Positions 8,290 through 59,611 of a stretch of DNA of 64,000 nt are shown one piece after another. The stretch is from NCBI GenBank assembly GCA_030248225.1, contig JASANE010012710.1, positions 32,007 to 96,006 of the forward strand, in the 5' to 3' direction. Each line of letters begins with the position of its first letter. Within the stretch, counting starts at the first letter, position 1. Both the position numbers and the translations under genes were made by a program. The DNA is from Trileptium ribeirensis. Taxonomy: Eukaryota > Nematoda > Enoplea > Enoplida > Thoracostomopsidae. The notes under the pieces were generated by a model. The model searched no databases, had not been told where the DNA came from, and worked only from the letters and a program-made list of their open reading frames with translations.

Positions 8290-9680
8290 ACACGGATATC
8301 TGAATTGAATATAGTAAACTATATCCCTGCCCATCACTATTCAAGACATGGTGAAAACGGCATATTTGTCCCGTCAACGTGTGAATCGGCTTTGCCAATC
8401 ATTCTACTAAATAAAAAAGGAACATGGCGCTTGTGTATAGATTATCGTAAAATCAAGGCTGTAACGCGCAATAATTATCGTATTAAATACGCATAGATGA
8501 TGTTATGTGACCGTAAAAATGACGAGTATTTTGCACACATGATTTGCAAAGTGGATATCATCACATTCAAACGCATCCGAACATCCAACGACGTGTTCAC
8601 GACGTTCGATGGACTATAATCACAAAGTTTTCGTTCGAATTTGAAATACCGCGGCAACGTTTAAACACTCAATGGAGCCTGTTCTAGCAGACCTGGGCTA
8701 GAAAAATGTTTGGAGTACATGCATATCTTGGCGATATGATCGACGCCGGGTCAGCTACTTCAACGACTACGCGTGGTGTTTTAATGACTTAGTAGATTGG
8801 TAAACCTCAAGTTGAATATGAAAAAAAACTTAATTTTGGTCGAACTAGCGTTCCATTCTTGAGTTATGTTCTATCTGCAGACAGCTTATTTACCAGAATG
8901 TCAAAAAGGGAACAAAATAATTACTTGGTCTACTCCAAAAGGTGTAAAAGAAGTGCTAGGTTTCATTTGCTTCGCCTCGCGATACCGGTCTTATGTATGG
9001 CCATTTGCAAAGATTGCAACTCGACTACATACACCATACCAGAAATTGAGCAATTTCAAGTGGACGGATAAAAGGTTAGTCAGTTTTCGATGAGTTAAAG
9101 AAATTTCGCACAGTTAATCATAATACAGACAGAGACTAGTGATCGTGCTATTGGAGCGATACTAAGCCCGCTGGATGATAAGGGTAAGGAACACAGAATA
9201 TCCTATGCCAGCAGAGCACTCACGAAAACAGAATGAAGATATCATATTGTATGGGGTAGACACTAGCGGTGATAGGAGCAATTCGGCATTTCCGATCATA
9301 TTATTATGGTCTACCTTTAAAGATGATTACGGGTCACGAGCCATTCACGTGATTATTTACGGCGAAAGACCACACGGACCGATGAGTCTTTTGCTTCAGG
9401 AATATATGGTCTTTATACACAAATCGGGCCGACAATATAACAACGCAGATGCATTACCACGGCGTCCAGAGCATGCAGAAATTGTTGCTGAATTGTTGCA
9501 GTACCTACAGTCCAATCTGTACAGAACTAAACAACATAACAAAATTTGCGCGATTTCCCATAACACTGACAACCAGACAAGGAATCCATTGAATATTAAC
9601 AGTGACAATATCGATCAATTGCGAGAATATCAGGAACGGGGTGCAGAAGTGGCCGAAATACTCGTGAAAAGATCCACGAG
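8290..9680 (+). pseudogene. Ty3/gypsy relic: reverse transcriptase and RNase H part
   Basis: Degraded pol reading on the plus strand. The reverse-transcriptase start reads PIILLNKKGTWRLCIDYRKI near 8390-8460, the classic KKDGxxRxCxDYRxLN block. A later piece reads VLGFICFASRYRSYVWPFAKI and FKWTDKR (about 8950-9075), the hinge to RNase H. The RNase H end reads GRQYNNADALPRRP (about 9427-9470), followed by a linker (LREYQERGAEVAEIL, up to about 9665). Numerous stops and gaps are present. It is interrupted at about 9680 by a minus-strand LTR insertion and continues at about 10240. Confidence 0.7.
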
Positions 9681-9691
9681 TGATCATACAT

Positions 9692-9762
9692 TGGACCAGC
9701 CGGGATTCGAACCCGGATCTCTAGCTTGCAAGACTAGCGCGCTACCATTACACCACGGGCCC
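9692..9762 (-). tRNA. tRNA-Ala (UGC) or tRNA-Ala-like sequence
   Basis: The 71 bases fold as a complete cloverleaf. The acceptor is GGGCCCG paired with CTGGTCC (one mismatch), and it includes G3-U70, the alanine identity pair. The D arm is GTGT/GCGC around AATGGTA. The anticodon stem CTAGT/GCTAG has a 7-base loop CTTGCAA with anticodon TGC, and the T arm CCGGG/CCCGG has loop TTCGAAT. Internal promoter boxes A (TGGTGTAATGG) and B (GGTTCGAATCC) are intact. A TTTT run lies about 22 bases downstream, inside a CTCGTG/CACGAG hairpin. It sits 145 bases after the LTR end, so it may be part of a retroelement leader rather than an ordinary gene. Confidence 0.75.
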
Positions 9763-9820
9763 CGATCACAACGTGTTCAGCTACGCTATATATGCTAGCG
9801 TAGTGAGATGCTACATAACT

Positions 9821-9888
9821 CCCCTGCGGAGTCGCGGAGCGAGCGTGCGTTGAGAGCTCTAGCTGTGTGAAGAAACTCCGTGCAGGGG
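9821..9888. repeat. inverted repeat in the LTR leader
   Basis: CCCCTGCGGAGT at 9821-9832 pairs with ACTCCGTGCAGGGG at 9875-9888, with two extra bases on one side. A second perfect 8-base palindrome (CTACGCTA/TAGCGTAG, loop of 7) sits at 9781-9803. Both lie between the primer site and the tRNA, where retroelement RNAs often carry structured leader or packaging elements. Confidence 0.6.
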
Positions 9889-9906
9889 ATCACGTCGGGT
9901 TCACCA
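9887..9906 (-). promoter_or_regulatory. primer-binding site, tRNA-Trp type
   Basis: On the minus strand the LTR is followed by A and then TGGTGAACCCGACGTGATC. Its complement ends in GTTCACCA preceded by ATCACGTCGG, close to the 3' end of animal tRNA-Trp (ATCACGTCGGGGTCACCA). A tRNA-Trp primer is a known mark of the CsRn1/Kabuki group of Ty3/gypsy elements. Confidence 0.7.
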
Positions 9907-9907
9907 T

Positions 9908-10227
9908 TGTAAAAACAAATCGAAAAAAGGAAGAAAACCTAGGCAAGCCAACTAAGCGTGAGAACAACTGCAGGCGAAACAAACTTGTTTATTGAACACA
10001 AATCAAATGATGAAAAGTTAAGTGAAGTCAATAAACGAATAAAACAGTAGTTCAACTAGATAATCATCAGTATATAGTCTCGGTTCTTCTTCTTGAACCT
10101 TCCGCGTCGCTCACTGGATCGTGCATGTGACATCCACGTCCACGTGGCGCTTTGTGATTCGTCCACATGCCGCTCATGTGATACAGACATGAGAGTCCAA
10201 CACGTGTCGTTAAAGTGACACGTTACA
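9908..10227 (-). repeat. LTR (320 bases) of the truncated element
   Basis: It has TG...CA ends (TGTAACG to TTTTACA), a TATA-like ACTATATACTG and an AATAAA signal (GTTCAATAAACAAG) in the expected order for U3-R-U5. It is followed directly by a primer site. Only one LTR copy is present in the window. Confidence 0.75.
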
Positions 10228-18910: not shown

Positions 18911-18918
18911 AGCATGAA

Positions 18919-19535
18919 GTCTGTGGGATACGTCTGAATTAAACCGGTCCAACTCGGTAACAGAGGATGGCTTACGCAGAAGTACTTAGGGTATGCTTGG
19001 CTAACATAATTGCGTCAAGCACCCGCCAGTGCGCTTGTAAACTTGGTAAATGAGTCTATATTGATGTAAACTAACGTTATCTGCAACGCAGCTAGAAACT
19101 GCTTTCTTGGCAATGAACTGTATATATTTATTGAAACTGTGCGAGCAGCATCACAGTGTGTCTCATCCATAGCATTCTGATTAGAAAGTTATCATAATTA
19201 TGATGTAACTGACGGGCACTGTTTGTCCAACGCTAGCCTAAACAGTGTATCTGACCACTGATCAGAAAATTACCTTCTATCTATTATTTTCTCTTAGAAT
19301 CATATAAACCAATAATTTTAAGTTTCCTACAGAAGAACATGCAACAAACGTATGTGTAGTAACGGGAGGCGACTGGAGACAGAGCGAAAGTGTGTATTCT
19401 AGGCTCCAAGCTTGGTAAGCACATTCGATTTGACGTGGTATACGCAATGGTGTATAGTGGAAGACATTTTTTGCTCTGAATGTCCAAAAACCGACATATT
19501 TGATCGATAAATAAACATTATTAGCTTCCTCAGTC
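18919..19535 (+). mobile_element. family A (CAGGG element), internal fragment
   Basis: The sequence runs collinear with the interior of the copy at 28151-29333: TTAAACCGGTCCAACTCGG, GGGTATGCTTGGCTAAC, TTATCTGCAACGCAG, GGCGACTGGAGACAGAG and GATCGATAAATAAACATTA. Both element ends are missing. It contributes a 100-residue minus-strand open stretch with no known motif. Confidence 0.65.
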
Positions 19536-26399: not shown

Positions 26400-28150
26400 G
26401 ATACCTTAAGCGGATTGCACAAACATCTTTTAATGCTCACAAAATAGGATTATTATTAGAACGGACGACCGTAGCGAACATCTTCTAAACATTCAATAAA
26501 TTGTTTTTATGTCTGTGTTACACGCACAACTCATATTAGGCATATGGATAACGCATTTTTTATTTTACGCGTAAACTGATCTAATGTGGACCTATGTTTG
26601 TCTTTGCGCAGTTGCTATAATTTTCTAGTCAATTCTCTACAAAACCGACAGTAACTATTGAAAATGTGACTTCGCCTGCTTGAGTTCTGCCGAGATTTTA
26701 TATTATTAAAACCATTTTCAGAGGCTTCTGAACAAAAAATAAAAACTATCCAGAATTCCCCACCTACACGTTTGATAATATTAAATGGAGTAGCCGTAAT
26801 CCAAACATTAAAAATATACACAAAATGACATTTGCCAAATTTTAACCGAATGAGATTCCTGCTTGCTGGGTATGAGTATGAGCTTGTAAAACTATTAAGC
26901 ACCAGCGTGTAGAGTCTTTGTTTTAACCATACACTGGGTTCCTATACCACCGGATCAGTTGCACACCTTGCCTACGTGGTATAGTTCTAAAGTTTATTAG
27001 CACCATCATCATCTGCTCACAGGTCACGGTGTTATACCACTATTCCCTATTCTGGTCTAACTTAATTATATCGGAAACACATCAATGGGCTTATCTCACA
27101 TTAGTTTACCATTTGAAATTTGGCTAGTTTGGCCTCCACCAGGGTCTGATGATTCCTGGATGTTTAACGTCAGATTCTTCGCTGAAATCGATTACTTATG
27201 GAGCAGAAGTTTTCCCTGGGTTAAAACGATATTGGACGTTTAAGCGCTCGCATTCGAATTCGAACTGCGCTCATGCTATTGATTAGCCAATGGAACACGC
27301 TGAGACATAAGACCTTTCGACGACTGGCCTCAACATGGTTCGCCGGCGGGGCGACGATTTCAAACCCGAACAATATAGCAATACCGGGACATGTGGAGTG
27401 TTTACTCCTTCTTTCTTCGTTTCGTTTACTGTAAGCAAATCGATTACACAACGGGTTGCAAAAATTCACAGATACATATTAACCAATGCACAAAAACAAT
27501 AACGATTAGCCCATACATCAGGAATTTGATATAATCGCCTTCCTAAACGAACGTACAAAACCGTGAGTTAAACCAACCGGGTTGGAGCTCACAAATACTC
27601 AGTAAAACGGTTGCACTTGTCCTATTTGATTGCAAAGAAAACGGGGGTACATAATGATACAGCTAGATAGGCGCCAAAGCTAACTGTTCGATTATTATTG
27701 CTAAACATCGGGTTCAGACAAGCTGAAGGCTAAAATATGTGTGCTCAACTATACCAGAAAGAAACATGGAAAGAACACATTGAACTCGCATGACACTGCA
27801 CAGTACGGCACGTCATTCAGTGTTATATGGCACCAAAGTGAGGGTCATCTATGTGCACGATCTATGAATTCTCTGTCCAGTTAACCGCAAAAAACTTCAG
27901 AGGTTACTGATCTGAGCCTGATAATATTACAATATCATGATGCTCTGCGATAAGGCGATGTAAGTACAGTTTCGGGATTACTTCGTAATAGACGCTAACA
28001 CAATCTTAGCCAACAAACTCAAAAGCAATCACTTATATTGGAAGCGTAATCCCGACTCCTAGGAAGTTCATGTTTCAGAGTTAGAAACAGAATCCAGCTG
28101 CAATGGTGCTTCATGTTACAACTGGAGAGACGGAATGCATAGGTATAGAT
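26400..28150. other. intronic, family B-like piece at about 26995-27370
   Basis: The part at about 26995-27370 shares ATCATCTGCTCACAGG, TACCACTATTCCCTAT and GGGGCGACGATTTCAAACCC, in the same order, with 35965-36300 (TCATCTGCTCAAAGGCC, TACCACTATTCCCTAT, GGGGCGACGGTTTCAAACCC). The rest shows nothing recognisable. Confidence 0.5.
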
Positions 28151-29333
28151 CAGGAAGTAATCCGGAATTCCGGCTCCGGCGAAAATCGTGTTCGGGTTGC
28201 GGTTACGGCAAAGGGCAAAAACCATACCGGAACCGGAATTCCGGTTTAAAAATTTTGTTTGAAAGTTTTTCCACATTTGTGCTTCATCCGTGGTCCAAAC
28301 ATGATGTAATATATATACAATGATCAAGTTTCAATACAACCAAGCAAAAGAAAAGATAAACTCATCAATTTGCCGCGTGAAACGTATGTAGGGAACATAA
28401 TTTCAGTAGAAATTTTTCATAATAGCCTGCAGGAGTTTGTTAACAAAACTACCCCAGGTTGATGCTTGTAGCAGCTATTTAACACATTCACAAGTCTGCG
28501 GGGTGTGTTAGAATTAAACCGGTTCAACTCGGTAACAGAGTGTGGATTACGTGGAAGTACTTAGCGTATGCTTGGCTACCATAAATTGAGTCACTCACCA
28601 GCCAGTGCTCTCGTATACTTTATAATCAGTCTACATTGAAGTAAAATAACATTATCTGCAACGCAGCCTGAAACTGCGTTCTTGGCAGTGACTGCAATTA
28701 TTGTAACTATGCGAGAAGTATCACAGTTTGTCTCATTTATAACATTCTGATTATAAATTTATCATCATTGTCATCTAACTGACGTGCACTGGTTGCCCAA
28801 CGCTAGCCTAAGCAGTGTCTCTGACCACTGATTAGAAAATTACCTTCTATCGCTTTCTCTTAGAACCAAACAAACCAATAATTTCCAGTTTCCTACGAAA
28901 CAATATGTAACCAACTTATGTGTAGTAAAGGGAGGCCACTGGAGACAGGGCAAAAATGTTTATTATACACTCCATGCGTTGTAAGCACATTCAGTTTCAC
29001 GCAATATACACAAGGGTGTATAGTCAGCGGAACGCATTTTTTGCTCTGGGTGTCCAAAACCGACATATTGATCGATAAATAAACATTATTAGCTTCCTCA
29101 GTCTCCTTAAAGTTTCAGAAAAGCAATAATGCCATCGCAATATATACATTAAGTTTAATGTAAAATTTATTAATTTTTAATAAATTTTAAATCCACTGTA
29201 CCTTCATTTCTTCCTTCATCTGTTTTGCTATATATAAGTTTCGATGACCAGGTTCCGGTTCCGGATCCGATTTAAATGGACGGTTCCGGTTGCTGGTTGC
29301 GGTTCCGGTAAATTTCGGTTCATTTATTCCCTG
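28151..29333 (+). mobile_element. family A, full-length CAGGG-ended non-autonomous element
   Basis: The left end is CAGGAAGTAATCCGGA and the right end, read on the other strand, is CAGGGAATAAATGAACC; the outer 9-10 bases are an imperfect inverted repeat. Both ends are followed by CCGG-rich segments with many CCGGTTCCGG-like words. The interior has no transposase. Three other copies in the window allow the ends to be placed. Flanks of this copy show no convincing 8-base duplication. CAGGG ends with short imperfect repeats suggest a hAT-like origin. Confidence 0.65.
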
Positions 29334-39683: not shown

Positions 39684-40727
39684 CAGGGAATAACCGGAAC
39701 CAGCAACCGGAACCGTCCATTTAAACCGGAACCGGAACCCGGTCTTCGAAACTTATATAAAGTAAAACAGATTAAGGAAGAAATGAAGGTATAGTGTATT
39801 TAAAATGTATTAAAAATAACTTTTACATTAAACTTAATGTATTGCGATGGCATTATTGCCTTTCTGAAACTTTAAACAGACTGAGGAAGCTAAATAATGT
39901 TTTATTGATCAATATGTCGGTTTTTGGACATCTAGAGCAAAAAATGTTTTCCACTATACACCCTTGCGTATAATGCGTCAAATTGAATGTGCTTGCAACG
40001 CATGGAGGGTAGAATAAACATTTTCGCTCTGTCTCCAGTCGCTTTTCTTTACAACACATTGTTACACGTTGTTCTGTAGGAAACATGAAATTATTGGTTT
40101 ACATGGTTCTGAGAGAAAATAATAGAAGGTAATTTTCTGATCAGTGGTCAGAGACAAAATGTTATACTGCTAGCCCAGTTGCAATAAATACAGTTCATTG
40201 ACAGGAACGCAGTTCCTGGCTGCGTTGCAGATATGTTACTTTACTTCAATGTAGACTGATTTACAAAGTTTACAAGCGTACTGGCGGATACTTGACACAA
40301 TTTATGTTAACTAAGCTTACAGTTAAGCACTTCTAAATATTCTTCTGTTATACCGAGTTGGACGGTTTAATTTGGACATACCCGCACACTTCTGAATGTG
40401 TAAAATAGCTGCTACAAGCATCGACTTGGCTTTGTTTTAAGTAACTCCTGCAGGTTAAGATGAAAAATTCCTACTAAAATTATGTGCCTTACTTACGTTT
40501 CAAACGACAAATTGCTGAGCTTATTTTTTTCTTCTACTTGGTTGTATTGGAACTTGATCATTGTACATAATATTATATATGTTTGGACCAGAGATGAAGC
40601 AAAAATGTGGAAAACTTCAAACAAAATTTTTAAACCGGAATTCCGGTTCCGGTGTGGTTTTTGCCCTTTGCCGGAACCGCAACCGGAACACGATTTTCGC
40701 CGGAACCGGACGTCCGGTTACTCTTTG
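39684..40727 (-). mobile_element. family A, full-length copy with 8-base target duplication
   Basis: It is inverted relative to the 28151-29333 copy. The left end is CAGGGAATAACCGGAACC. The right end on the other strand is CAAAGAGTAACCGGACG, which matches it at 12 of the first 15 bases. ATATATAT flanks both sides (39676-39683, 40728-40735), an 8-base duplication as expected for hAT, though in low-complexity sequence. The CCGG-rich ends and the interior words (ACCGGAATTCCGG, CAAAGGGCAAAAACC read on the minus strand) agree with the other copies. Confidence 0.72.
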
Positions 40728-40735
40728 ATATATAT

Positions 40736-54891: not shown

Positions 54892-55084
54892 TGTGGCAAT
54901 CACCAATACGATCGACAGAAGAAATGACAATCACGTGATTTTCTAACGCAAGACTAAATCATTATTGAATCATGATTCTGATGCAACAGACAAAGACTGC
55001 GCCCACGCTATTCTGATGCAAAAGTAAACTGTATATAAACCATGTATTATTTGTAATAAATCACTTCTTCATTTCATGCAATCA
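54892..55084 (+). repeat. 5' LTR (193 bases)
   Basis: It starts TGTGGCAATCACC and ends TTTCATGCAATCA, and matches the 3' LTR over its whole length with substitutions and a small indel near 55000. It contains TATATAAACC and an AATAAA-like TAATAAATCAC. Confidence 0.85.
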
Positions 55085-55087
55085 AAA

Positions 55088-55106
55088 TTGGTGAACCAGA
55101 CGGTAG
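55088..55106 (+). promoter_or_regulatory. primer-binding site, degenerate tRNA-Trp type
   Basis: A few bases after the 5' LTR the sequence reads TTGGTGAACCAGACGG. It resembles the better-kept TGGTGAACCCGACGTG of the minus-strand element at 9.9 kb, so a tRNA-Trp primer is likely. Confidence 0.55.
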
Positions 55107-55256
55107 TTCATTCAGTTCGACACGTTTCCCGTAATCGCCAGCTTAAACGTTTTCCCTATCTGCACGGTTTTCAATTTTTTGCTATTGTTTTTGTATTCAA
55201 CGGCCTTGGTTTTCTTTTATTCGCGTACTGACGCTCGGCAATTTCGTTTAGTTACA

Positions 55257-55327
55257 GCTCCTATAGCGTAATGGTAGCGCGACTGGCTCCGAATATGGAG
55301 GTTCCGAGTTTGAGCCCCCGGTCAACG
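55257..55327 (+). other. tRNA-like sequence in the retrotransposon leader
   Basis: GCTCCTATAGCGTAATGGTA followed by GCGCG gives an A box and a paired D arm (GCGT/GCGC). The next part has an anticodon-like loop CTCCGAA, and CCGAGTTTGAGCCCCCGG gives a B box and a T arm with one mismatch. The acceptor and anticodon stems do not pair, so it is not a functional tRNA. It shares TAATGGTAGCGCG with the tRNA at 9692-9762. It lies 172 bases after the LTR and just before the gag-like frame. Confidence 0.5.
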
Positions 55328-55331
55328 TTCT

Positions 55332-56750
55332 TTGGTCAAGCGTGAACAAGTCATCCAGTTGTTCGACGACGCCTCAACGAATTCCCCGCCGACGACAGCG
55401 AGTCCCAGCCGATGTTTTCGCAATCGAATCAACCCGGTGGTCAATTGCCTCAAGTCCCGTACGGAAAGGCACAAGGTTCCCGATTCCAACGTGCCAGGAA
55501 CGACGACCCCGTGATCAATTTTGTCGCGTCAATCTGACAAGGCGTTGGGTCAATTTGAGGGTGGTCAACCAGTGTCACAAGATCTGCTCGCGCCAAATCA
55601 AACAGAGGTCTACAGTCCGTTTCCATTCCGTCCCAGGTAATCCTCGTTCAAGTCGATGATCCTCAATCTGGGTCAATACAATCAATTTGAGGCAACATCC
55701 GAGGGCGTTCCTTCCATGGTAGCAAGTGCTGCGATCAAGCCGCCTCCATTCTGGCCTGCGGTTCACACAGGTAGAGGCTCAATTTGCCACAACCTCACAC
55801 AACAAACGAAATTCCACTATGTTATCGAGTCCCTCTCCCCCACGGAGGTTCGTGATCTCCTCATCAACCCACCGCGTGAAAATCCATACGACGTTCTTCG
55901 CAATTGGTGCAGCGACTGTCGATTTCGGAGTAGCGCCGCCCCCATCAACTCCTCAACGCCGAAGAATTGGGTGATCGCAAGCCAAGCCAGCTAGTTCGAC
56001 ACGTGCACTAGCTTCTTAGTTCCCAGCAATCTGCTCTCAACGACTCAATCCTTCAACAATTGTTCCTGCAGCGACTACCTCCAACATCCAAGTGGTCCTC
56101 GCAGCATCCGAAAGTCCGACGCTGGAGGCCGCGGTGATTCTAGCTGACAAAGTCATGGAGGTTGTCAATTCGGCTGTGGCAACGGTGGTAGAAGACGATG
56201 CGTTGTCGGCGGAGGTCAAGTCCCACGGACCGAAGTACGGAAGTTCCGACAACTAATTTCAACCGTCACCGTCAACCATTAAGGGTCCGCCATCGCCACC
56301 GAAGCCAGTCTTTCCGCCACCGAAGTCAATCAACAAGTCGCCAGCCAAGCCTCCTCTAAGAAATCTGTTGCTATCATTCACAATTCGTTTCAGCCGTCGA
56401 TCGACGCCGCGGTCAAACGACAACACCGCTACAAAGGGCAAATAACACCACGATCCGAACGTTCGGTCAAAGATTCCTCACGCTCGACTTAGCCATTACA
56501 GGAGTCATTCGGTGGGTATTTCCTCGTCGCCGACGTCTTCCATTCGATTATCTGCGCCGACCTCGTTTCCCACTTCGACTTGGTACCATACGTACGACGA
56601 TCCCAGCTGCACGATGGAATCACATCGCAGTTTAAGGGGTCACGCCGAACACCTGGTCCTTCAGCATCACCGTTCTTCAGTCGAATCAAACATCGAAGTT
56701 CATGTACCTTCTCAGGCAATTCCCAAATATTATAAATCCTAATTGGTTCG
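55332..56750 (+). pseudogene. gag-like and protease region of the CsRn1-type element
   Basis: Open pieces in changing frames cover 55332-56750. One reads FHYVIESLSPTEVRDLLINP followed by PRENPYDVLR, and close to its end CSDCRFRSS. The pattern of SLTPEVxxxVRDLL followed by PxxxPYxxLK is that of CsRn1-group gag proteins. A following Thr/Val-rich part may contain the nucleocapsid end. The protease is not clearly visible, although IEVHVPSQAIPKYYK resembles its downstream linker. Confidence 0.6.
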
Positions 56751-56859
56751 ACTCAAAGGCCTACACAACGTCGTCTGCCATTTCATCAAGACGAAGGAAC
56801 CACCAGTTGACACCCGTCCAAGACGTCTTCCACCGAATGAGATGAAAGCAGCATAGGAT

Positions 56860-57560
56860 GCGTTCGATTATATAATGCAACTGGCTATTATACGGCCGTC
56901 ATCAAGCTGTTTCTCGTCGCCTCTCCACATAGTACCGAATAGGAACGGCGATTAGAGGCCCTGTGGAGATTATCGGGCGCTCAACACCACCTTGGTCCTT
57001 GATCGGTACCCTATTCTACTCATACAGGACTTCACAACATCGATAGCCGGCAACTTGATTTTCTCGAAGTGCGTCTGGTTCGAACATATCACCAGACTCC
57101 AGTGGCGCCCGAAGATTTTCCAAAAAACAGTAGTCGTGACCCCCTTCGGGTTGTTTGAGTTCGTCCGGATGCCCTTCGGTCTGCGCACCGCAGCAGACAT
57201 TCCAGCGGTTCATCGATCAAGTCATTCGAGGATTCGACTTCTGCTACGCCTATTTGGACGATATCCTCGTTGAAAGCACTTCCGCCGATGAATATCATCA
57301 ACATCTTCGGCACTATTCCAGCGCTCGATGATTTCGGATTGTCCATAAACGTCGATAAGTGCGAATTCGGAGTTCCATCACTGGAATTCCTGGGACATCG
57401 CGTACATTCCCGCGATATCCATCCACTGCATTCGAAAGTGCAAAACATACAGGATTTCCCTCCACGGGTACCCGTCAAGAAGCTACAAGAGTTTCTTGGG
57501 ATGCTTAATTTCTATCATGGCTTCATACCAAATTGCGCCGAGATTACTATACTGATGACG
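56860..57560 (+). pseudogene. reverse transcriptase of the CsRn1-type element
   Basis: Blocks in order are SSPLHIVPNRNG (about 56920), CGDYRALNTTLVLDRYPI (about 56970), IFQKTVVVTPFGLFEFVRMP (about 57120-57175), then in shifted frame the active-site box CYAYLDDILV (about 57240-57265). These are followed by LSINVDKCEFGVPSLEFLGH and DFPPRVPVKKLQEFLGML. The YLDD box itself is intact in its frame. At least two frameshifts and one stop interrupt the domain. Confidence 0.85.
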
Positions 57561-58040
57561 TCGCTCATACAAAGCGCGAAGCCAGCCAAAGTTCTGGAAA
57601 GGACCGAAGTGGCAACAACAGCTTTCGAGGCATGTAAAGAAGCTTTACCTCAAGCGGCCTTACTGGTTCACATATTATTCGACACACCACTAAACATAGT
57701 GGTGGATAACTCAAACATCGCAGTGGGTGAGATGCTACAACACGATGGGGCATGCCAACCGCTATCGTTATGTTCCGTGGAGATTCGATACAGCACTTTC
57801 GGCAGGGACTGCTTGCAAACTACTCAGTAGGTCATTTTCGGTACATTATCGAAGGACGATATTTCCACGTCCTAACGGACAAGAAGCCATTGACGTTTGC
57901 TCTTTCCACAATGTCCGAACGTCAATCACCGCGGGAGGTTCGTCATGCCTCTTTCATCGCAGAGTTAACCGACGACATACGACACATCAGTGGAACCCAA
58001 AACAAGACAGTCGACGCCTTGTCCCGCATCAACAGTGTTG
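57561..58040 (+). pseudogene. RNase H of the CsRn1-type element
   Basis: Blocks are LNIVVDNSNIAVGEMLQ (first catalytic Asp region), STFGRDCL, then after a stop and frameshift near 57828 FRYIIEGRYFHVLTDKKPLT (second Asp) and HISGTQNKTVDALSRI (terminal DALSR, about 57990-58030). The Glu position is preserved in the STFGRDCL region only as Asp. Confidence 0.82.
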
Positions 58041-58930
58041 TACCAGGAACAGATTACCGGATGCTAGCTGAAGTACAAGCAGTCAACAAACAATCGGAGA
58101 CAATCGAGCAGAAGTCATTGCAGCTGAAGTGGATGCCGCTTCCAGTGACTGATCGACCGGTGCTATTTGATGTTTCAACGGGTCAAGCACGACCATATTT
58201 GCCACCGGAATTTCGCCGAGTTGCATTCGATAGTCTGCACTTACTTTTCCATCCGGGTGTCAGAGCATCACAAGGACTACTAGTCCAGCGCTTTGTGTGG
58301 ACCGGAATCAACAAGGATGTGCGACGATAGGCCAAGCCAAGTTTGGACTGTCAACGAACCAAGATACAACGACATATAGTCACTCCTTTGGGCAAGTTCG
58401 ATGGTCCCGATCAAAGATTTGACAACATTCACATAGACATCGTTGGTCCTCTTCCGCCATTAAACGGCCAAGCTTATTTGTTGGCGATTGTAGACCGCTT
58501 TTCTCGCTGGCCCGAAGCCATTCCTATTCCAGATATCACAGCCGAAACTGTTGCTCAGACTCTGATGTCTGGTTAGATTTCTCGATTCGCGTTCCAACGT
58601 TTGTCACCACCGACCGCGGTCGACAATTCGAGTCAACACTAGCAAAAATCCATGGAGTTAATCATCTCAAGACAAGTGCTTACCATCCTATGGCTAATGG
58701 GATGGTAGAATGATTGTACCGACAACTTAAGGCTGCAATCAAAGCTCAACCGAACAGTCAACGATGGACTGAAGTGCTCCCTCTGGTTCTGCTGGAAATT
58801 CGATCGTCAGTCAAGGAAGACATTGGTGCGTTTAGCTTCGATATGCTGTACGGGACATCAGTCCGATTGCCAAGTCAACTTATCGCAACTGAACCGTCAT
58901 CAGAGGTGATCCGTCAATGCTAGTCAGCCG
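58041..58930 (+). pseudogene. integrase of the CsRn1-type element
   Basis: The zinc finger has LHLLFHPGVRASQGLLVQRF for the His pair and [11 protein letters not shown] for the remaining Cys region; a stop at about 58328 separates them. The core starts [20 protein letters not shown] (first Asp), then [21 protein letters not shown] stop at 58576 and a frameshift precede the TDRG segment, and [10 protein letters not shown] is broken by a TGA near 58711. The tail reads LPLVLLEIRSSVKEDIG and YGTSVRLPSQL. Confidence 0.85.
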
Positions 58931-59306
58931 CCTGCGAGGGATGACTCGTTTGTCCCAACGCCAAGTCGAGAGACCGAGCGACCGTTTTATGTCCCATCAA
59001 CACTGAAGGACACGGAATTTGTATTCATTTCAGTCGACGCCGTCAGAAGCCACTACAAGCCCCTAAATTGGTCCGTGTCGAGTCCTCAAGCGCTGTGACA
59101 AGTATTACACAGTCGACAGAGCCGCAAATCAAGACATCGTATCGTTCGATCGTCTCAAACCGGCATTCCTCGATCAAGGTTACTCCTTCAAGCTTCCACC
59201 GAGTACTGCGGAGACTCCGGTGGAAATCAAACGAGCTCAATCCGCACACAGCAATGCGAGGGGTCCAAAGCCAACACCATTGCTCTTTCCATATCGGTTC
59301 CTGACT

Positions 59307-59318
59307 GGAGGGGAAGGC
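59307..59318 (+). promoter_or_regulatory. polypurine tract
   Basis: GGAGGGGAAGGC lies immediately before the 3' LTR, the expected primer site for plus-strand DNA synthesis. It is almost all purine. Confidence 0.75.
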
Positions 59319-59508
59319 TGTGGCGATCACCAAGACGGTCGACAGAAGAAATGAAAATCACGTGATTTTCTAATGCAAGACTAAATCATTGAATCATGAT
59401 ACTGATAAAATATACAAAGACTGCGCCCACGCTATTCTGATGCAAAAGTAAACTGTACATAAACCATGTATTATTTGTAATAAATCACTTGTTCATTTCA
59501 TGCAACCA
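59319..59508 (+). repeat. 3' LTR (190 bases)
   Basis: It starts TGTGGCGATCACC and ends TTTCATGCAACCA. Shared words with the 5' LTR include ATCACGTGATTTTCTAA, GACTGCGCCCACGCTATTC and CCATGTATTATTTGTAAT. It is preceded by the purine tract GGAGGGGAAGGC at 59307-59318. Confidence 0.85.
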
Positions 59509-59611
59509 AATATACAAAGATTATATATCTGAAATACACACCATTGAAGAATTTTACGCAGTGGTGGAAAATTTTACAGCACCTGATTTTCAAAAAGAAA
59601 ACCCTGCCGCT

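Follow-up and report, generated by a model that had tools for sequence, protein, structure and literature searches.

The leader of a CsRn1-like LTR retrotransposon (54892-59510) in the window, i.e. the whole 64,000-nucleotide stretch of Trileptium ribeirensis DNA analysed here, contains a decayed tRNA-derived block, which occupies the identical place in every one of the ten copies (that of the window among them) in which this leader was found. The block is probably the remnant of a tRNA, most likely of the priming tRNA-Trp, which an ancestor would have captured once and which later copies would have carried along as a passenger. It starts approximately 170 nt past the 5' LTR and approximately 168 nt past the PBS. 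A search for the leader in the assembly (687 Mb, 20,229 contigs) yielded 13 matches, and 10 of these (window copy counted) cover the block. A decayed tRNA-like block at this distance from the 5' LTR had been proposed in a first-pass annotation and was borne out by all ten copies, as well as by a scan of the window in which the block is the top match to tRNA-Trp. The mean pairwise identity of the ten copies is 0.83 within the block, 0.83 before and 0.86 after it, so the block is conserved no more than its flanks. Its 28-nt core was found at nine sites in the genome (up to three mismatches), all of them in copies of the leader-block family; given this confinement of the core to its own family, the block does not represent a recently dispersed repeat. 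In L019, an eleventh relative of greater divergence, the 3' half of the block has apparently been kept (approximately 72%, by eye) and the 5' half lost, which is why the capture is probably older than the split of L019. This relative had been considered as an empty site, with sliding tRNA-Trp and tRNA-Ala scores reaching only 10, a reading given up after a second alignment revealed a deletion sparing the 3' half. No empty or intermediate leader was present among the copies found, thus the capture itself was not seen.

Judged by its tRNA-Trp PBS and by Pfam matches to RNase H and integrase, the element is a CsRn1-like member of Ty3/gypsy. An exact PBS (TGGTGAACCCGACGTGATT), which is complementary to the 3' end of host tRNA-Trp plus CCA, is found in the C916 copies L012 and L018; the host tRNA-Trp gene is located at L071 1474-1545. 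The pol remnants comprise three matches to the Pfam RNase H and integrase zinc-binding families, one of which reaches the curated cut-off. An intact gag frame is absent from the ORF list of the element, and a protein search with the 192-aa ORF at 57752-58330 yielded 43 candidates, none of them at E 0.001. Individual copies have been rearranged: in L013 a 123-bp tandem duplication covers the LTR end, the PBS and the leader start, and in L014 the leader start is interrupted by approximately 440 bp. Elsewhere in the window, dispersed repeats with approximately 79–85% identity are located in both orientations at 18917-19535, 28144-29304 and 39692-40734.

Table 1. Coordinates of the leader block, its element and the chimera at 9.7 kb in the window.
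Feature	Position	Strand	Basis or remark
5' LTR of the element with the leader block	54892..55086	+	direct repeat with 59319-59510
PBS complementary to the 3' end of tRNA-Trp	55089..55105	+	window copy decayed; based on host gene, copy alignment and PBS scans
tRNA-derived block, nearest to tRNA-Trp among the host tRNAs tested, no working cloverleaf	55257..55327	+	
box A-like motif TAGCGTAATGGT	55264..55275	+	motif scan of 10 copies
box B-like motif GTTTGAGCC	55308..55316	+	one change from GTTCGAGCC of L012 and L017
TTCTTT in place of T run	55328..55333	+	five or six T in 8/10 copies
3' LTR of the element with the leader block	59319..59510	+	approximately 92–93% identity to 54892-55086
151-bp LTR (TG..CA) of Helenus-type TRIM	9665..9815	-	unit edges in genomic copies; target-site duplications
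intact tRNA-Ala (TGC) in TRIM LTR	9692..9762	-	ARAGORN and Rfam, 62.4 bits
PBS (tRNA-Trp) and internal part of Helenus-type TRIM	9816..9907	-	
LTR-A, LTR of another family, upstream part of the chimera	9908..10227	-	8 other long matches with a common left edge

The ten copies of the block score 16 to 27 against the host tRNA-Trp gene, whereas none of the 300 shuffles made of each copy exceeds 13. The comparison with host isotypes covered Trp, Met and Ala. Against host tRNA-Ala the copies score 10 to 19, and tRNA-Trp is the closer one in all ten; host tRNA-Met, found by pattern (8 sites, 5 of them fetched), scores below host tRNA-Trp in nine copies and above it in L011. The alignment of L017 with tRNA-Trp extends over 52 nt without gaps. 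In a panel of 22 human tRNAs, elongator tRNA-Met reached the highest mean (24.4, compared to 23.0 for host tRNA-Trp and 20.5 for human tRNA-Trp, all others being at or below 16.5) and outscored host tRNA-Trp in eight of the ten copies. The human tRNA-Met result weakened the case for tRNA-Trp as the certain source and host tRNA-Met partly restored it; certainty on this point was given up, and the block is best described as Trp-like, with Met as a possible source too.

That the resemblance to a tRNA is due to chance has a practically negligible probability. This reading would be in line with the failure of ARAGORN, and of Rfam at its threshold, to recognise the block, and with a total cloverleaf pairing only modestly above that of shuffled sequences (depending on the copy, the observed total is attained by 5 to 159 of 500 shuffles). 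It is refuted by the shuffles described above, by the window scan and by the control stretches: when 12,784 sliding 80-nt windows on both strands were compared with tRNA-Trp, the block ranked first with a score of 27, followed by the tRNA at 9.7 kb with 18 and all others with 15 or less, and in 387 control stretches of 400 nt the scores for Trp, Met and Ala all stayed below 16.

As a tRNA, the block is dead, the cloverleaf being broken in every copy. Between 10 and 13 of the 21 cloverleaf pairs are left per copy, compared to 21 in host tRNA-Trp and a shuffle mean near 8. The D stem has 3 or 4 of its 4 pairs in all ten copies, while 1 to 5 of 7 pairs are found in the acceptor stem, 1 to 3 of 5 in the anticodon stem and 2 to 3 of 5 in the T stem. 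Neither ARAGORN nor Rfam called a tRNA at the block in the window or in L009-L018; the lone Rfam tRNA match among the latter loci (21.3 bits in L010) is located off the block and is below the threshold, and the Rfam tRNA model run on just 121 bases of the L017 copy gave 13.2 bits compared to a threshold of 29. The first-pass annotation had named leaders without a cloverleaf and tRNA-like hits at random positions as findings that would speak against it. The former is what the copies display, and hits of the latter kind were seen neither in the window scan and the 387 controls nor in the scores at the PBS sites described below.

Motifs resembling a pol III promoter are found in most copies. The distance from box A to box B is 44 nt in nine of the ten copies (one mismatch allowed per motif), L013 having no box B at this place. 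A run of five or six T follows approximately 12 nt after the box B position in eight copies, seven of which carry the box B motif, and L009 and L010 read TTCTTT there. Retention of box A, box B and the T run is also what would be seen with a promoter, and the block may still resemble one for pol III.

The tRNA at 9.7 kb, which in the first-pass annotation belonged to a second LTR element with the same arrangement, does share TAATGGTAGCGCG (55269-55281) with the block, as had been noted. The second LTR element itself was not detectable. The tRNA-Ala is located in the LTR of a TRIM, a miniature element, which forms part of a 563-bp chimera: LTR-A is joined at the tRNA-Trp PBS to the TRIM internal part and a TRIM LTR. 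The TRIM unit in the window lacks its own 5' LTR and has one TRIM LTR only, with LTR-A ending at the PBS instead. The chimera is flanked by CGGG and CGAG, which are equal in three of four bases. A 9.7-kb LTR element around the tRNA-Ala was rejected, as no LTR partner was found within the window, LTR-A represents a separate family and the tRNA belongs to the LTR of the miniature element. Of eight LTR-A ends fetched, six have no PBS behind them and two (L076 and L077) lead into a PBS-like start with a leader; the leaders at these two ends are of unrelated sequence and contain no tRNA. With a 361-base stretch of the window as query, the only full-length match was the window itself among the 40 scored of 1,282 first-look candidates, and the other matches listed from these 40 end at the edges of the TRIM unit.

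This TRIM is abundant in the genome. The sequence TAATGGTAGCGCG occurs 505 times, compared to 9 times for the reversed control, and 68 of these sites were sampled in 44 stretches fetched around listed sites (duplicates L004 and L006-L008 as well as the element copies L009-L018 were left out of the count). The tRNA-Ala score is at least 16 in 67 of the 68 sites, with L023 as the exception, TAGCATCTCACTACGC (up to three mismatches) is located within 260 nt upstream in 64, and a PBS is found 120–165 nt upstream in 26. The repeated unit is a TG..CA sequence of 151 bp with the tRNA-Ala inside, which is arranged solo, as LTR-internal-LTR or in longer chains. LTR-internal-LTR units with a PBS include L024, L037 and L042 and have the purine-rich GCAGGGGAGTTA before the 3' LTR, at the place of a PPT (by eye). 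Perfect 4-bp target-site duplications were scored for 15 of 24 units, compared to 1.8% of cross pairings; four more units have a 5-bp duplication by eye (L031, L050, L054 + and L059), and one of the remaining five scored units, the second row of L031, begins at an internal LTR. That the dispersed unit with the tRNA-Ala is a SINE was considered and rejected in view of the LTR-internal-LTR pattern and the 4-bp duplications, which identify it as a TRIM LTR. In the fetched sample, tRNA-Ala predictions with this D arm are mostly TRIM LTRs (64/68 sites). Tandem chains of the TRIM were observed in L022 (G000:C291:20000-27271), L059 and L003; the chain in C291 has a 344-bp period and an extra antisense tRNA-like piece starting with TGGTGAACCCGACATGATTTGAACTCGCAACC. 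At L073 1481-1655, ARAGORN predicted a tRNA-SeC beside a tRNA-Ala on the opposite strand; the sequence called as SeC is similar to tRNA-Trp, and its CCA is encoded.

Elements primed by tRNA-Trp do not in general have a tRNA-like leader. The PBS 19-mer has 61 exact sites in the genome and 406 with up to one mismatch (reversed control: 0). Sixty sites were fetched: of the 59 exact sites that do not belong to the leader-block family, all but C3144 and C14845 (57 sites), plus three with one mismatch. The downstream sequence was scored on the sense strand only, with a cut-off of 16. A sense tRNA-like block was found at 5 of the 60 sites, all of them TRIM or TRIM-like, while the other 55 score 13 or less. 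Three of the positive sites (L099, L103 and L132) are the tRNA-Ala TRIM. The remaining two, L091 and L092 (G000:C4078), are probably a second tRNA-bearing TRIM: a PBS and an internal part ending with GCCGCGGGAGTTG are followed by TGTAGTGATC.. and, approximately 179 nt past the PBS, a tRNA-like sequence. L129 clusters with these two and has no tRNA that could be seen. Ten multi-copy PBS clusters (two or three sites each, 21 sites in total) contain no sense tRNA-like block, and it is mainly on these that the negative result rests, since many singleton PBS sites may not be leaders. The start of one of the tRNA-less clusters (L096 and L097) resembles the TRIM internal part. On the antisense strand, L112 has two tRNA-Ala calls and L109 is tRNA-Ala-like by eye. 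The leader block and the tRNA at 9.7 kb are probably separate captures, not one shared trait. Of the family trait suggested in the first-pass annotation, inheritance in ten copies of one family stands, and a leader common to two LTR elements does not, the second being a TRIM chimera.

For the leader block, capture during reverse transcription would involve a switch of the reverse transcriptase onto a co-packaged tRNA, or a tRNA-bearing RNA, in an ancestor of the family. The captured tRNA would then have been passed on to later copies as a passenger. Homology, common position and decay of the block are observed; the route of capture, its occurrence as a single event and the passenger status are inferred. 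Joins at the PBS do happen in this genome, as documented by the 563-bp chimera in the window and by seven tRNA-Trp fusions. At these seven of the 60 PBS sites (L082, L115, L116, L121, L123, L126 and L130), the PBS is prolonged to 38–40 nt of exact antisense tRNA-Trp with CCA, followed by other DNA; three of them (L082, L121 and L123) sit behind a TRIM LTR end. The fusions end at tRNA positions 37–39 (our own numbering), which suggests that the primer was read through up to position 37 and that chimeras formed. A block of reverse transcription at methylated G37 would explain these end points.

An insertion or recombination into the leader, by which the block would be the tRNA-related head of an old SINE or a Helenus-type LTR, is a rather unlikely alternative to such a capture. 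tRNA-bearing TRIMs are abundant in this genome, one of them is fused behind a foreign LTR in the window, and their tRNA is located at a comparable distance past the PBS (144 nt in the window and approximately 179 nt in L091, compared to approximately 168 nt for the leader block). Moreover, a SINE insertion has been proposed as the origin of tRNA-bearing TRIMs in Kojima 2024 (PMC10886601). However, the genome-wide search for the block core revealed no dispersed relative within three mismatches, the leaders of the leader-block family do not cluster with the TRIM sequences, and neither an LTR edge (TG..CA) nor a duplication was recognised by eye around the block.

Quite improbable is a former working part, e.g. 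a promoter for pol III or a signal for packaging or priming that mimics a tRNA, which has decayed only since the copies died. The box A–box B spacing shared by nine of the ten copies, the T run and the well-kept D stem would fit such a function; however, identity inside the block equals that outside, the spacing of the boxes can last through descent alone, and no such block was found in the ten other multi-copy PBS clusters or the two LTR-A leaders seen. Very little credence is given to a further extension, in which the element would stand between coding elements and tRNA-bearing TRIMs: boxes A and B and the terminator of the leader tRNA would have provided a coding CsRn1-type element with an additional transcript, made by pol III, and leaders of this type would supply the LTR tRNAs of TRIMs of the same primer class. 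Capture of a tRNA as a passenger is the preferred reading. The entry of tRNA sequences into LTR retrotransposons is not limited to one place but concerns both the leader and the LTR, and in this genome the primer tRNA-Trp is also found at chimeric junctions; the origin of tRNA-bearing TRIMs can thereby be tested by comparison of leader and LTR within one genome.

In the literature on tRNA-bearing LTR elements and leaders, as far as openly available (few subscription journals were covered), Helenus, Cassandra and cqgypsy_1 were found, and no leader of the kind described here. Helenus TRIMs (PMC10886601) are LTR elements with a PBS and tRNA-derived boxes A and B, the tRNA being mostly non-functional. 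The unit at 9665-9907 fits this description, having the tRNA in a TG..CA LTR, a short internal part with a PBS and, in genomic copies, the 4-bp target-site duplications of animal Helenus. The abundant tRNA-Ala TRIM is a more striking local fact than the leader block, and it fits into a group already described. Element 54892-59510, in contrast, does not agree with the Helenus criteria (tRNA in the LTR, no coding region), since its block is located in the leader of a coding-type element with pol remnants. It resembles the CsRn1 clade, as described in the passages of PMC2582038 (PwRn1) consulted, in the tRNA-Trp PBS and in the matches to RNase H and integrase; these passages make no mention of a tRNA-like leader. 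A tRNA sequence just past the 5' LTR of a gypsy-group element is likewise found in cqgypsy_1 of Culex (PMC3286476), where a head-to-head pair of tRNAs with CCA, bounded by 26-bp duplications, occupies the PBS region, whereas the element described here has a single tRNA remnant, no CCA, approximately 170 nt past the LTR. Cassandra, as summarised in PMC10886601, likewise carries a small-RNA-gene promoter inside a retrotransposon, although in this case it is that of 5S rRNA, in the LTR of a non-autonomous TRIM. Compared to these systems, the tRNA remnant in the leader is a modest variant on known tRNA-bearing LTR elements.
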